Part shown: piece after piece, positions 12,700 through 25,397 of the stretch
Layout of the letters: every line of letters starts with the position of its first letter
Position numbering within the stretch: position 1 is the first letter of the stretch
Virus record (IMG/VR): IMGVR_UViG_3300007504_001353
Location: 1 to 25,419 of that record
Direction: 5' to 3' (one strand)
DNA length: 25,419 bases
Origin: a virus
Position numbers and translations under genes: made by a program
Notes under the pieces: generated by a model
The model's input: only the letters and a program-made list of their open reading frames with translations
The model's database searches: none
What the model was told of the DNA's origin: nothing

Positions 12700-13161
12700 T
12701 TATAGTTTATTAATAGAAAGATCTAACTCGGATTCGTCGCCGTTTTTGATCTCCCTTATCTCTTTTAAAATTCGCTGAATCTCGGGATTATTACTACATA
12801 TCTTTTTTAGCTTCTTAACAATCCCACCATAACGCTTTTTGTTGTTTTTATAATCAATGTTCCCAAGGAGGGCTTTGTGGATTGCTGACTGTGTTACACC
12901 TAAATGTTCTGCTATTTCATTCTGTGTTTTCCCCATCAATCTCATAAGAAGAATCTTTTTCTGATGTGCCGTAAGAAAGCCTCCATGAATGATGTTATAT
13001 ATTTCTTCTAAAAGCTCCTCTCTTAAAGTTTGAATCCTTTCATCTATTTCGTTATTTTTTAAAATATGACTAATACCTCTTTCTTCGGGAAAGTTATTAA
13101 GCTTTCCCTGATCAAAAGAGATCTCAACAATTTTATGTTGATATAGTTTAGATTTATTCAC
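12700..13161 (-). CDS. Sigma region 4-like helix-turn-helix protein (GTG start)
   Basis: The 153-residue protein carries a helix-turn-helix much like region 4 of sigma-70 factors or LuxR-type regulators: LTAHQKKILLMRLMGKTQ (63-80) followed by NEIAEHLGVTQSAIHKALLG (81-100). A basic C-terminal helix (about 110-125) and an acidic tail follow. The region 2 needed for -10 recognition is not apparent, so it is unlikely to be a complete sigma factor; it may redirect host polymerase or act as an ordinary regulator. It begins with GTG at 13161-13159, preceded by AGGAAATAAATA, and overlaps the endonuclease gene by 8 bases. Being in front of late-type genes, it could control them; this is inference. Confidence 0.75.
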   Translation of the reverse strand: MNKSKLYQHKIVEISFDQGKLNNFPEERGISHILKNNEIDERIQTLREELLEEIYNIIHGGFLTAHQKKILLMRLMGKTQNEIAEHLGVTQSAIHKALLGNIDYKNNKKRYGGIVKKLKKICSNNPEIQRILKEIREIKNGDESELDLSINKL

Positions 13162-14296
13162 TATTTATTTCCTGTAAATATTTAGCCACAATGGCCTCAA
13201 CGTTTTCAAGATCCCAATAAGGAATCCTTAATAAATTTATGTTATTGGAAGCACAAAAGATATTTTTAATTTGATCATTTATCTGAATATACTCTAAATT
13301 CTCTATGTCACCACTCCATCCAATATAATGCTGCAAGCCATCAAACTCTATACAAAGATTATGTCTTGGTAAATAAAAATCAAACTTTAAAGGTTGCTTA
13401 TTCCTGCAGCTACTAAAAGATTTCTCCATTTCAAAATCAAAATTATTTTCTCTTAGAAACTTTCTTATTCTAAGCTCTCCCCTGCTTTCGAAACAGTAAG
13501 TGCAACCATGCCCCTGTAAATGATCTCTTGCCATTTGGTAAAATACACCGTGTTTCTTGCATTTAATGGCAACTTTCTGATAAGACACTATATATTTTGT
13601 TAAATCATATTCAAACAAATCACCATGAACAGCTTTCGCTAAAGAAATAAATTTTCCGGTTGTATAGCGCCGGGCTATCTGCTTTTGAGCTAAGATTAAT
13701 TCGGCACATTTGGGGCAATTACTTTTTAAATGCCCAGTTGGAGTTTGTAAAAACTCGCCATGTTTTTTGCAAATAAGAATAACCGGGGTATAACAATTCT
13801 TATAATCAACTTTAGAGTAATTATATTTATCCCCATGCGTTTCTCTTGCCTTTGTAATAAATTCAGCGCGCGTTAATGCATTTTTTCGCCCCGCTCTTTC
13901 CGAACCGCATTTGGGACATCCATGACCCTGGAAGTGAATTCTCGGAGTTTGCTTAAACTCTCCATGATCAGAGCATCCGATTATTACCTTTACTTCGTTA
14001 CGCTTATATACAACTTTATCATAATTATATTTATCTCCATGAACTTCTTTGGATTTCTCCAAGAATTTGACCAAGTTAAATCGGCATCTATCTCCGGTTT
14101 TATTGGCCGCACATTTTCTGCATCCTCGACCTGCCATATGATGATCAGGTTGTTGTATAAACTCACCATGCTCAGGGCATATTATGATAGCCTTTGTTCT
14201 ATTGTTTTTATAAACAGATTTAGAATAATCATATTTATCTCCATGAGACTCTCTTGATTTTTCTATAAACTCTTCTCTCGTTTTTCTTCTTGGTAT
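13154..14296 (-). CDS. Homing-type endonuclease with four Cys/His repeats, apparent AUA start
   Basis: The first in-frame ATG (14137) cuts into the first repeat, but the frame stays open and repeat-like up to an ATA codon at 14296-14294, six bases after a strong AAGGAG; a stop (TGA) lies two codons further up. This gives 380 residues. Four repeats of about 60-75 residues share the pattern HGDKYxYxK, then CxxHGxFxQxPxxH, then GCxxC (DUF723-like), and probably bind zinc and DNA. The C-terminal 110 residues form a Vsr / PD-(D/E)XK-like nuclease: SRGE, FDFYLP, CIEFDGLQHY, and a final Asp and Lys (NDQIKN). It resembles the gene at the right edge. Such genes cut DNA to spread themselves. It sits 10 bases after the primase stop, and its end overlaps the sigma-like gene. 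Confidence 0.8.
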   Translation of the reverse strand: MPRRKTREEFIEKSRESHGDKYDYSKSVYKNNRTKAIIICPEHGEFIQQPDHHMAGRGCRKCAANKTGDRCRFNLVKFLEKSKEVHGDKYNYDKVVYKRNEVKVIIGCSDHGEFKQTPRIHFQGHGCPKCGSERAGRKNALTRAEFITKARETHGDKYNYSKVDYKNCYTPVILICKKHGEFLQTPTGHLKSNCPKCAELILAQKQIARRYTTGKFISLAKAVHGDLFEYDLTKYIVSYQKVAIKCKKHGVFYQMARDHLQGHGCTYCFESRGELRIRKFLRENNFDFEMEKSFSSCRNKQPLKFDFYLPRHNLCIEFDGLQHYIGWSGDIENLEYIQINDQIKNIFCASNNINLLRIPYWDLENVEAIVAKYLQEINSE

Positions 14297-14306
14297 TTTT
14301 CACTCC

Positions 14307-15089
14307 TTATTCAAAAGCCGGGCAGTAATCACTTAAAGCATTAAATAATTCATTCTTTGAGTGGTTTCTTAAAAACTCATCAACATCTTTATATCCTTCA
14401 GGGAGAATTTTGTATCTAATTTTAAGTCCCCAATTCGAATATTTTTTATTTACAGACTCCATACCTTTTCTTCCACCATCATCACGATCAAAAAGAAAAG
14501 TCATTTTATCTGTATATTTTGTTAAAGCTAAAACGTGTTTTTTGGACAATCCTGTCCCACATAAAGCAACTGCATTTTTAATGTTATTTAAAACAAGACT
14601 CATTTGATCAAAAGGCCCTTCGCATATAAATACATTTTTATGTTTAAGAATATGTCCTCTTGAAGAGTTCAATCCAAAAAGCGTCTTGCTTTTTGGGTAT
14701 TTGCTATTTTCATACTTAGAGATTAATAATGCCGCACGCTCATCTTCTGACAAGAGAGTCCTGCCATTTATGCCTATTGGTCTATTGAATTCATCAAAAA
14801 GCGGTATTATTAAACAAAAAAATTCTGAAAACTTTGAGTCTCCAGAATAATTAATTATATTTAAACTTTCCAATGTAAAACGAGAAACGTATTTTGTTAA
14901 AATATCAACATTTTGAGGAAAATACCCTAACTTGTATTTGCTTATGATATCATCAGATAAACCTCTCTCTTTTCGAAGATAGCTTTGGGCCTTTTTCGAG
15001 TTTTTAAGGTTGGCATGGCAAATATCAATAAGAATGCCAAGATCTTTGCGAATATTTTCGCTCAAACGAACTCCATTTTTTTCTTTCAT
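14307..15089 (-). CDS. DnaG-type primase catalytic core without zinc domain
   Basis: The 260-residue protein corresponds to the RNA polymerase core of bacterial primase. It opens with the helical YLRKERGLSDDIISKYKLGY region (37-56), then LIIPLFDEFNRPIGINGR (93-110), YPKSKTLFGL (131-140), and a TOPRIM fold with ICEGPFDQ (E157), GTGLSKKH, FLFDRDDGG (D201, D203) and KDVDEF (235-238). The usual N-terminal CHC2 zinc domain of about 100 residues and the C-terminal helicase-binding domain are missing, and neither is encoded nearby. It should make RNA primers with help from another factor. The ATG at 15089 has no ribosome binding site; a TTG at 15065 is preceded by GGAG at five bases and is an alternative start. 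Confidence 0.85.
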   Translation of the reverse strand: MKEKNGVRLSENIRKDLGILIDICHANLKNSKKAQSYLRKERGLSDDIISKYKLGYFPQNVDILTKYVSRFTLESLNIINYSGDSKFSEFFCLIIPLFDEFNRPIGINGRTLLSEDERAALLISKYENSKYPKSKTLFGLNSSRGHILKHKNVFICEGPFDQMSLVLNNIKNAVALCGTGLSKKHVLALTKYTDKMTFLFDRDDGGRKGMESVNKKYSNWGLKIRYKILPEGYKDVDEFLRNHSKNELFNALSDYCPAFE

Positions 15090-20770: not shown

Positions 20771-23700
20771 TTAATACCTCGCTTCCCTAACTCTTCTGCC
20801 AGAAATATTCTCCAGCACTGATAAGTTTATATCCTTTTTACCCTGATAATCAGACACTTTACAAATTGCTTTTATTGGAACAACTGTTTCGAATGCTCGT
20901 CTATATCGACCATAATGAAAAGACCATAAGGTCATATGAGCAGTATTGCCATAAGCATCTTCCACTAAATACTTCCCAAACTTCTTTCCTTTATTTTGAC
21001 CATTCTTAATTGTTAGCTCTTTAATTAAGCCTTTAATGATTATCTCAACCTTTATTTTTTTCTTATCAGGAAGATCTTGGATTTTTGATAATGGTGTTAT
21101 CATCGGATTTCCCTTTCTGAAAAATCCCGGAAAAATCTCATGAATAGGGCCGCTAATAGTTCTGCCAAAAACATCTAACTCATTAAGTAAAATTTCTTTT
21201 CGAGACCACTCTTCTTCTGTATAAACAAAATTAATATTATCAATAATCTCATCCAAATTTAATTGCTCATGAATCTCGGCATAAAAGGCTTTTTTTCTTG
21301 CGTTTCTTATTTTAAGTGGCAATGCAGCAAACGCAATCTTTTCGGCTTGGCTGAGAGCTTCAAGGTGTGCATCCCAATATTCTTTTTTTGCTTTATTAAT
21401 TGTATTATTTACTTTTGTTCTATATTTTGCATAATTATCAAAAATAGATTTTCTGGATATACCCCAACAATCAAAAACTCCGGCTTTTGCAAGTGATCCC
21501 ATAACAGTTTTATTTAAGATTCTGCCTTTGGTTCTTGCAAAAAACTGAACCAAATTATCAGGTTTGGCTTGCACAAGCTCTATAATAGCTTTTGCGCCAA
21601 CTCCTTTTAGGGCAGAAAATCCCGTTGCAATTATTTTATCTTCAGAAACCGTATAACCCTCATTACTTGTCATAATATTTGGAGGTGTAATCTTTATCCC
21701 AAGTAATCTGCAATTATTTATATGCTCCAAAGATTCATCAGAATTCGGGTCTTTAGAGTTAAGCAGAGCACACATAAATTCCGTTGGATAATGGCATCGC
21801 ATCCAAGCAGTATAATATGATATATGAGAATAAGCAATAGAATGAGCTTTGTTGAAAGAATATCCAGACATAGGCTCTATCCATCTCTTCCATATATTTA
21901 CCGCTTCTTCTTTGGCCATATTAGAATGCTCCATAGAATCCCTAATAAAATCCGTCTCTGTTTTTGCTGCTAACTCAGGGTCTTTTCCTTTGAGCTTACT
22001 AAGCTTTCTTAGTGCGTCAGCTTGGTTTAAGTTCCAGCCAGCAACATCTTCAGCAATATACATCGCAGATTCTTCATAAAGAAGAATCCCTTGCGTTTTC
22101 TCTAAACCTCGCTTCATATTAGGGTGGCCATATTTAACTTTTTCTTTTCCAAGAACCCTGTCAATATAAATCTCGCGGGTTTCCGGCAGACAAGATGGTC
22201 TGCCTAATGCATTAATTGCGGATATACCTTCAATATTTTTAGGTTTTATCTTTATACAAAATGGAGTTAATGAAGCCTCTAATTGAAAAACCCCGGAGGT
22301 TTCTCCTCGACCAATCATGTCATAAGTTTCTTTGTCATCAAGTGGGATATCTTCAAGCACAAATTCTTTACCTTGAACTTCTTTTATTGTTTTTAATGTA
22401 TTATCAAGAACCGTCATGGTTTTTAGGCCAAGACAATCCATTTTCACTAAACCAAAATCTTCACAACGGTTTTTTTCCCACTGAGTTACCGTAGTCCATG
22501 TACTTGGATCATTAATATCACCTTGCTCAATCCTCAAAGGAATTAGTTCATACAAAGGCTGATCTGCCATGACAATTCCGGCAGCATGAACCCCCCAATT
22601 TCTCGTTAACCCCTCCAATCTCGTCGCATATTCATGCAATTTAGGATAACGCATTAAGGCTTCCGCAAACTCAGGATCGGCTTTCATGGCTTTATCAATG
22701 CTTTTTTCATCTGGCATTATTTTAGTTAAATGATTTGCTATTTCAAACGCAGATGATTTATCTCCACCTAATCTCAAACTTCTCGCGGCATCTTTGATAG
22801 CAACCTTTGGAGATAAAGTGGAGAAATTTGATATTGAGGCGACATTTTCATGCCCATATTTTTCCCTAATATATTGTTTTACCTTATCAGGAGAAGCAAA
22901 ATCTAAATCAATATCCGGTGTTGCCGTTTTTTGCGCATTATGAAATCGCTCAAAAATCAGACCATATTTAATAGAATCAACTCCGGTAATTCCTATTAAA
23001 TAAGCAATTACGCAGCCCCCTACGCTGCCCCTCCCGGTGCCAACAGGAACATTGTTTTCTTTAGCCCATCGAACAAAATCAGCAACGATTAACATATATG
23101 AAGAAAAATCCTTATCCTCCAAAATAGCTAATTCTTTCTTAACCCTCTCCCAATATAACTTTTTATCTTTTTTAGGAAGGTGTCCCACCTTCTCCTTAAA
23201 CCCTTCTATGCACCTATATCTTAAATACGACTGATCCTCCGGAATATTCTTCTTGTTAGAAACCATATCCCAACCCTTAAAAGACCAATAGTTTTTTTCT
23301 TGATGCACAGGAAACTTCGGAAGGATTGTTCCCTTCGGCTCTAAATATGTCGGCTCATCACAAGCATCCAAAATCCGCACCGAATTCGCCATGCCTATCT
23401 CGGCAACCCCCTTCCCAAAAAAATCTATAATCTCTTCGTGAGTCTTGAGATACATATCTTGCACACCATAGCGGAACCTATGCTCATCATCAAGAGCCTT
23501 TCTGTCTTTAACTGCAAGCATGAAATCATGATATTTTGCATGGCTTGCATCTCTATAATGAGCATCACAGGTAATTACATACGGAATATCCATATCTCTT
23601 GATAGACGAATCATTGCTTGATTTAATTTCGGCTGATTTACCTCCCTACCTTTTTTGTCTACATGCACAAGTGCGTGCGGCTGGATCTCAAGAAATAAAT

Positions 23701-24214
23701 TATCCCTAAAAATAGAGTGTAACCTTCTAATGTGACATATGGCCTTCTCTTCATCTTGTTCGGTTATAAGCGTTTTAGCTATTAATCCATTTGAACAGGC
23801 GGTTAAAACAAATAACCCTTCATTCCACTGCTCTAAATGTCTCCATGTGATTCTTGGCGTCTTTTTGCTCATATAGCCAATAGACTGGTTTTTAAAAGAT
23901 TCATATGCAAGTCTTAATAGGTTTTTGTAACCTATAGCATTTTGAGCAAGAATAACCATATGGTTATTCTTTTTTGTAGAAAGATCAGTTGTGAAATAGA
24001 ACTCTTCACCGGGAACTAATTTTACACCTGTTTTCTTTGATGCTTTCCATGCATCAAATATTGCTGTCAAATTCCCGTGATCAGAGACTGCAACCCCGGC
24101 ATGTTCAATCTCTTTTGCTCTCACAAATAAATCATGCACATCATTCATCCCATCTAATGGACTTCCTAATTCTGTATGATTATGGAGAGAAACATATGGT
24201 GACCTAGGCTTCAT
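20771..24214 (-). CDS. dnaE: DNA polymerase III alpha subunit (DnaE-type)
   Basis: This 1147-residue protein is a full-length family C replicative polymerase. The N-terminal PHP domain keeps metal-binding-type residues: HNH (11-13), SDH (D45, H46), E70/E71, H85 and CDAHY (216-220), so it may retain a proofreading nuclease, which E. coli DnaE has lost. The polymerase active site has GTGRGSVGGC (392-401) and the catalytic aspartates of PDIDLDF (D434, D436). Conserved stretches follow, for example GILLYEESAMYIAEDVAG and MSGYSFNKAHSIAY. Further on come a helix-hairpin-helix (FSALKGVGAKAI) and a C-terminal OB fold (LTIKNGQNKGKKF). No DnaQ-like insertion as in PolC is seen. The start overlaps the preceding endonuclease gene by 11 bases, with GGAG upstream. 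Confidence 0.97.
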   Translation of the reverse strand: MKPRSPYVSLHNHTELGSPLDGMNDVHDLFVRAKEIEHAGVAVSDHGNLTAIFDAWKASKKTGVKLVPGEEFYFTTDLSTKKNNHMVILAQNAIGYKNLLRLAYESFKNQSIGYMSKKTPRITWRHLEQWNEGLFVLTACSNGLIAKTLITEQDEEKAICHIRRLHSIFRDNLFLEIQPHALVHVDKKGREVNQPKLNQAMIRLSRDMDIPYVITCDAHYRDASHAKYHDFMLAVKDRKALDDEHRFRYGVQDMYLKTHEEIIDFFGKGVAEIGMANSVRILDACDEPTYLEPKGTILPKFPVHQEKNYWSFKGWDMVSNKKNIPEDQSYLRYRCIEGFKEKVGHLPKKDKKLYWERVKKELAILEDKDFSSYMLIVADFVRWAKENNVPVGTGRGSVGGCVIAYLIGITGVDSIKYGLIFERFHNAQKTATPDIDLDFASPDKVKQYIREKYGHENVASISNFSTLSPKVAIKDAARSLRLGGDKSSAFEIANHLTKIMPDEKSIDKAMKADPEFAEALMRYPKLHEYATRLEGLTRNWGVHAAGIVMADQPLYELIPLRIEQGDINDPSTWTTVTQWEKNRCEDFGLVKMDCLGLKTMTVLDNTLKTIKEVQGKEFVLEDIPLDDKETYDMIGRGETSGVFQLEASLTPFCIKIKPKNIEGISAINALGRPSCLPETREIYIDRVLGKEKVKYGHPNMKRGLEKTQGILLYEESAMYIAEDVAGWNLNQADALRKLSKLKGKDPELAAKTETDFIRDSMEHSNMAKEEAVNIWKRWIEPMSGYSFNKAHSIAYSHISYYTAWMRCHYPTEFMCALLNSKDPNSDESLEHINNCRLLGIKITPPNIMTSNEGYTVSEDKIIATGFSALKGVGAKAIIELVQAKPDNLVQFFARTKGRILNKTVMGSLAKAGVFDCWGISRKSIFDNYAKYRTKVNNTINKAKKEYWDAHLEALSQAEKIAFAALPLKIRNARKKAFYAEIHEQLNLDEIIDNINFVYTEEEWSRKEILLNELDVFGRTISGPIHEIFPGFFRKGNPMITPLSKIQDLPDKKKIKVEIIIKGLIKELTIKNGQNKGKKFGKYLVEDAYGNTAHMTLWSFHYGRYRRAFETVVPIKAICKVSDYQGKKDINLSVLENISGRRVREARY

Positions 24215-25397
24215 TATTTTTCTCCAAATTTTTAATTACTTCCATAATAGCCCCCTTTACATCCTCTATAAAATAACTTATTCTTAATAAATCTAACCCA
24301 TTATCTTTACAATATTGATTTTTAATATTGTCACATATTAATCTTTCAAAATATGCCCCTTCTCCTCCGAAAAAATCAAGCGGATAAAAATGTTGCTCTC
24401 CATCATATTCTATGCATAGTTTAAAATCTGGCAAATAAAAGTCAAATTTCAAAAACCCTGTATTTTTACAGTTAGAAAAAACAAACTCTCTTCTGTAAGA
24501 AATATTTAGATCATCTAAAATATTGGCAACCCTTCTTTCCCCCCTGCTTTCTCTACAATACGGACAACCATGCCCAGCCATGTGTCCATATGCTTTTTGT
24601 TGAAAAGAGCCGTGCTTTTTACATATAATCTCTACTTTGGCGTGCGCAAATGTATATTCTGTTTGAGAATAATCATATTTTTCACCATGAATACTTTTTG
24701 ACTTTTTAATAAATTCATCAATTGTTAAAAACTGCTTTGACGCTCTTTTGTCTACACCGCACTTGAAGCAACCATATTTTAAATGCAACATTGCTTTCTG
24801 CTCAAAATCACCATGCTTGGGACAGCCAATAGTAATCTTATCTCGTAACACACGATAACTTGTCTTTTCATAAGAATATTTGTTCTTATGAAACTTATTT
24901 GCGCGTTTAATAAACTCTTCTTTGGTAACCGTGCTTTTATATATTCTCGGAGTTTTTCTTTTTAAAAACTTTTTACTTGCTGATAGCTTTGCTGCGGCTT
25001 TAACAAACCCGCATTTTCTGCAACCGTTACCTAACAAATGACTATTCGGAATCTGTTCAAATTCTCCATGATCAGGGCAAATGATTATTACCTTTTCTTT
25101 ATTTCTTTTATATTTAACTTTTGAATAATCATATTTATTGTTATGGACCTGAGCAGCTTTTTTCTGAAAAACCTTTTTACCTAAGACTCTTTTCTTTGCT
25201 CGGTCTGTAGTTGCACACTGCCTACATTTTTTTCCTTTTAAATGATCGTAAGGTAAAATACTAAAATTTCCATGAAGAGAGCAGAGAATAATTACTTTGG
25301 TTCTTGCGTTTATATATTTTGTATCAGAATAATCATATCTATCGCTATGCTTTTCTTTTGCTTTTGCTACGAAATATTCAGTGTCCTTCCTTTTCAT
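24204..25397 (-). CDS. Homing-type endonuclease with four Cys/His repeats
   Basis: The 397-residue protein has four repeats (about 5-63, 72-130, 165-222, 228-285) with the shared pattern KYDYSxxxY, then CxxHGxFxQ, then a final CxxC, likely zinc-binding DNA-contacting units (DUF723-like). The C-terminal nuclease (about 285-397) has SRGERRVANIL, LKFDFYLPDF, LCIEYDGEQHF and CDNIKNQYC, the acidic and lysine pattern of Vsr / PD-(D/E)XK enzymes, as in the EDxHD group of phage homing endonucleases. It closely parallels the product at 13154-14296 in repeat number and nuclease. GGAGAT precedes the ATG. It sits directly before dnaE, where such selfish genes often insert beside replication genes. Confidence 0.85.
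   Translation of the reverse strand: MKRKDTEYFVAKAKEKHSDRYDYSDTKYINARTKVIILCSLHGNFSILPYDHLKGKKCRQCATTDRAKKRVLGKKVFQKKAAQVHNNKYDYSKVKYKRNKEKVIIICPDHGEFEQIPNSHLLGNGCRKCGFVKAAAKLSASKKFLKRKTPRIYKSTVTKEEFIKRANKFHKNKYSYEKTSYRVLRDKITIGCPKHGDFEQKAMLHLKYGCFKCGVDKRASKQFLTIDEFIKKSKSIHGEKYDYSQTEYTFAHAKVEIICKKHGSFQQKAYGHMAGHGCPYCRESRGERRVANILDDLNISYRREFVFSNCKNTGFLKFDFYLPDFKLCIEYDGEQHFYPLDFFGGEGAYFERLICDNIKNQYCKDNGLDLLRISYFIEDVKGAIMEVIKNLEKNNEA

Follow-up and report, generated by a model that had tools for sequence, protein, structure and literature searches.

Where does translation of the endonuclease gene on the minus strand of this phage DNA begin? The window analyzed here is a complete virus record from IMG/VR, 25,419 bases long, in which the gene occupies positions 13154-14296 and encodes 380 amino acids when read from an ATA codon at 14294-14296. 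The initial annotation had claimed that no ATG, GTG or TTG lies in the endonuclease frame between an upstream TGA (14302-14300), which closes the frame, and an ATG at 14137, and a scan of the sequence agrees. The first in-frame ATG (14135-14137, Met54) is 53 codons inside the frame counted from the ATA. The ATA itself is preceded, across a gap of six bases (TGAAAA), by an extended Shine-Dalgarno (SD) sequence, TAAGGAG (14303-14309, minus strand), whose AAGGAG core is at 14308-14303, the distance and coordinates originally described. It is followed by the codons CCA AGA AGA AAA ACG AGA GAA GAG TTT. The SD overlaps the TAA stop (14307-14309) of an upstream primase-like gene on the same strand. 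That the AUA marks a real start position is well supported. Judging from the sequence, we consider it probable (roughly 0.7) that the full-length endonuclease starts at AUA 14296-14294 after an ATG-to-ATA change, with low-level initiation on the strong SD.

The 53-codon stretch upstream of ATG 14137 belongs to the endonuclease gene. Codon log-odds were trained on the other genes of the window and the remainder of the endonuclease gene. The stretch from ATA to ATG scored +17.4, against an average of 15.6 (s.d. 5.4) for gene windows of equal length, and its five other frames scored from -9 to -49. The HGDKYDYSK...CPEHGEF...GRGCRKC pattern can be read in the translation, so that the first repeat is indeed intact 5' of the ATG, as initially noted. 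Internal ATA codons of the gene fall at positions occupied by Ile in homologues, which indicates that the genetic code is standard and AUA is not generally read as Met; a reading of AUA as Met throughout the gene was rejected on this ground.

The endonuclease is composed of four repeated zinc-finger-like modules and a C-terminal nuclease domain, with matches to Pfam PF14311 (DUF4379, above cut-off) and to PHROG 559/681 (HNH/homing endonuclease). In the AlphaFold model, modules 1 to 4 cover residues 7-70 (14087-14278), 75-138 (13883-14074), 143-208 (13673-13870) and 213-269 (13490-13660), and the nuclease domain, placed by PHROG, the model and Foldseek, covers residues 272-379 (13160-13483), all on the minus strand. 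The fold and confidence of module 1 match those of modules 2-4, with pLDDT about 91 over most of module 1, and as modelled it is whole only if translation starts at or 5' of the ATA. One could instead start at ATG 14137, the first canonical start in frame, to obtain a 327-residue protein with three modules, and module number does vary among related proteins. However, this ATG lies late in module 1, between the end of its strands and the last of its Cys pairs. It had no purine-rich SD in the survey of starts across the window, and its use would leave 53 well-formed codons and a strong SD unexplained. A start at this ATG is thus very unlikely.

The modelled fold of the C-terminal domain resembles the catalytic domain of I-Bth0305I (3r3p; Foldseek probability 1.00, E only 0.038), and a sequence search of the PDB returned no relative. 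Residues E274, D306 and D341 are nearly invariant in the homologue alignment, and the domain may have the EDxHD (I-Bth0305I/Vsr-like) fold. Tandem zinc-finger-like DNA-binding modules are shared with the DUF723/DUF4379/CapR zinc-finger phage nucleases (PMC10448857), in which the modules are fused to T5orf172 nucleases, whereas here they precede a domain resembling I-Bth0305I.

The N-termini of homologues were compared with the sequence following the ATA. The relatives L056-L058 begin MARRKTREEF, and a sister endonuclease gene in the window (24204-25397, minus strand) begins MKRKDTEYF, against I-PRRKTREEF here. In these proteins, the initial Met aligns with the ATA codon or one residue away from it, and codons 3-10 of L056-L058 are nearly identical to those of the endonuclease gene at the DNA level too. 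The sister gene had been described as having four complete repeats from its start, and four repeats do follow its ATG. Homologue starts that are supported by an SD lie mostly 16-18 residues 5' of the first HGDKYDY motif, and the ATA lies 17 residues 5' of it. An alignment with homologues that places the start at 14137, named initially as evidence that would speak against the ATA, was sought and not found.

Relatives of the endonuclease occur in over a thousand phage records, at identities below 60% in all. Among 108 distinct homologous open reading frames (ORFs) with a complete repeat, three run off the contig, leaving 105. An ATG is found 5' of the first repeat in 97 of the 105, counting any ATG within the open frame and not only proven starts. 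Another six have only GTG or TTG, and two have no canonical start, namely the window endonuclease and L072. In the latter (L072:251-1256), no canonical in-frame start precedes the first repeat, and TTG AAA AGA CCC GCT CGA ATA enters the repeat out of frame. The sequence suggests that its lack of a start reflects a frameshift caused by a small N-terminal indel. The other SD-supported homologue starts are all ATG, GTG or TTG, in a comparison that looked for ATA starts in the window gene only; the AUA is therefore not conserved.

The strength of the SD was estimated by its duplex with the anti-SD. The TAAGGAG duplex has a value of -11.0 kcal/mol, which ranks fourth among 26 gene starts in the window, and the start region is weakly structured (z = +1.26), with no strong fold. 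A strict search for similar starts was run over 1.13 Mb of related phage DNA, requiring a strong SD, a distance of 5-8 nt and an ORF that is closed upstream and spans 100 codons or more. It returned 21 ATG, one GTG, the window ATA and one CCG. The last two were the only non-canonical matches, and the CCG proved to be a terminator hairpin, not a start. The homologue N-termini, the strength and spacing of the SD, the coding potential and the modelled module boundaries each independently support the start position at ATA that was first proposed.

An out-of-frame GTG next to the SD had been pointed out as the basis of another reading, in which a -1 shift or recoding event, or an indel, would join it to the gene. 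The GTG is present, at 14303-14301 and not 14304-14302, and it overlaps the SD with zero spacing instead of adjoining it. Its own frame stops after 22 codons. Because it lies 7 nt upstream of the ATA, it could be brought into the endonuclease frame only by ribosomes slipping +1 on AAAAA, or by loss of one base (GTG AAA A|ATA); the -1 direction is wrong. A +1 slip has some appeal in that tRNA-Lys could re-pair with AAA, with AUA as the next codon. Nevertheless, apart from the overlap with the SD, the product would gain an N-terminal extension absent from the nearest homologues, whose starts coincide with the ATA position. The local structure is weak, and an Rfam search of the window returned nothing, indicating no known frameshift or regulatory RNA there. 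The GTG was rejected as a start, and recoding from it is hardly credible.

The genes on either side may be connected with the endonuclease in translation. The upstream gene (14307-15089, minus strand) encodes a DnaG-like primase with DNAG_N and Toprim domains; the N-terminal zinc domain of DnaG gave no match in it. Its ATG (15089) has no SD (-0.4 kcal/mol). Some 60 nt upstream of that ATG, at about 15176-15150, is a strong hairpin resembling a terminator, AAAGCCTCC...GGAGGCTTTTTT. With no SD and a hairpin upstream, the primase gene may be expressed from a short leader. Downstream, a small sigma-region-4/HTH gene (12700-13161, minus strand) has a GTG start that overlaps the endonuclease stop by 8 nt (13154-13161), and the AUA-started endonuclease and this gene could thus be translationally coupled. 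Elsewhere in the window, a GroEL-like chaperonin of the phage (16408-18066; phrog_5725, E 2.9e-124) adjoins a RecA/UvsX-like gene, and a bacterial-type DNA polymerase III alpha with a PHP domain is encoded at 20771-24214. The best phage relatives of this polymerase are only about 31-35% identical, which places the phage at a distance from deposited ones.

How could an AUA serve as the start? The ancestral codon at this position would have been the AUG that homologues carry, whose third base would have changed from G to A. The strong, unstructured UAAGGAG with its six-base gap would position the ribosome at the AUA. Reinitiation possibly assists, since ribosomes finishing the primase gene stop at a UAA that overlaps this SD. 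The initiator tRNA would then pair with AUA with a third-base mismatch, a kind of pair against which IF3 discriminates, and the level of the enzyme would be reduced by this mismatch. The product is predicted to begin fMet-Pro-Arg-Arg-Lys-Thr. As the ATA stands exactly where relatives have AUG, the enzyme is probably produced in small amounts, and a nuclease gene that spreads by itself can perhaps tolerate a reduced yield or profit from it. The layout, the frame, the SD and the homologous start position are shown by the sequences. Initiation at the AUA, its low yield, the coupling to the primase and the tolerance or usefulness of a low yield are all what we infer from this arrangement.

Starts of this kind have been described in bacteria. 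In Staphylococcus aureus, infC and ccpN have AUA starts with an extended SD, and reporters with non-canonical starts gave about 10% of the AUG level, with ccpN reaching as much as 30% in rich medium (PMC13009471). The AUA/AUU starts of infC, ccpN, citZ and cvfC1 resemble the present one: a near-cognate codon, one base from AUG, lies at the usual distance from an SD that is strong or extended. In contrast, they are bacterial starts seen by ribosome profiling, with those of ccpN and cvfC1 described as conserved (PMC13009471), whereas here the gene is a mobile phage nuclease whose AUA was read from the sequence and is not conserved. An Escherichia coli rpoS ATG>ATA mutant carries the same third-base G-to-A start change and still produces RpoS, up to 5-fold less (PMC12864459). 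That mutation was acquired in the laboratory from a known parent, whereas the present AUA was seen in one phage record only. A lower value for AUA initiation in E. coli, at most 1% of AUG, is quoted from Hecht 2017 in PMC12864459. By analogy with these cases, initiation from an AUA behind a strong SD would be expected to be low but real.

Low expression is also a property of the free-standing homing endonuclease genes of T4-like phages, which likewise lie between phage genes and for some of which translational coupling has been proposed (PMC2988022). There, repression is exerted by RNA hairpins masking the SD or by gene overlaps, not by the start codon, which is AUG, or GUG in mobA (PMC2988022). 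A weak start codon would therefore be a different route to the same end. The AUA might even be a selected throttle, a near-cognate start on a strong SD that holds the endonuclease low and depends on both IF3 and primase translation. It would then take the place of the hairpins that mask the SD in T4 endonuclease genes. Selection for such a throttle is doubtful.

The same AUA may instead mark a pseudogene in the making, in which the ATG was recently mutated, the mobile gene is decaying and any residual initiation at AUA is without purpose. Homing endonuclease genes often gather inactivating mutations after invasion (PMC13405050), and the AUA start is unique among homologues. In the sequence, such a recent loss would look no different from selection for low expression. 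On the other hand, all 380 codons are open, modules 1-4 and the nuclease domain are complete, codon use is normal and the strong SD is still present. With frame, modules and codon use intact, any loss of the start must be very recent. We regard decay as plausible if short of probable; it overlaps mechanistically with low-level initiation at AUA, and the confidence placed in one does not exclude the other.

Finally, the base in the record could be wrong, with a G in the phage and an ordinary ATG start. The difference is a single base, and no second genome of the phage was found for comparison. Specifically, a megablast search against phages found no near-identical phage, and scans of viral contigs returned no relative with the primase, none with DNA polymerase III alpha and one, at 45%, with RecA. 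The DNA pattern of the start region had no match in viral contigs, and no relative with an empty site, lacking the endonuclease gene, was found. An error in the base would require an isolated substitution in an otherwise clean 25 kb record, in which the frames of the other genes are unbroken and begin at canonical codons; it is therefore considered unlikely.

AUA starts are already known in bacteria, and the phage endonuclease is an uncommon instance of them. Standard gene finders would drop 53 residues of this protein, i.e., a whole DNA-binding module. If the start was lost only recently, the gene would offer a snapshot of the death of an endonuclease gene. If the phage uses and retains the AUA, the choice of start codon would join the means by which phages restrain mobile nucleases.
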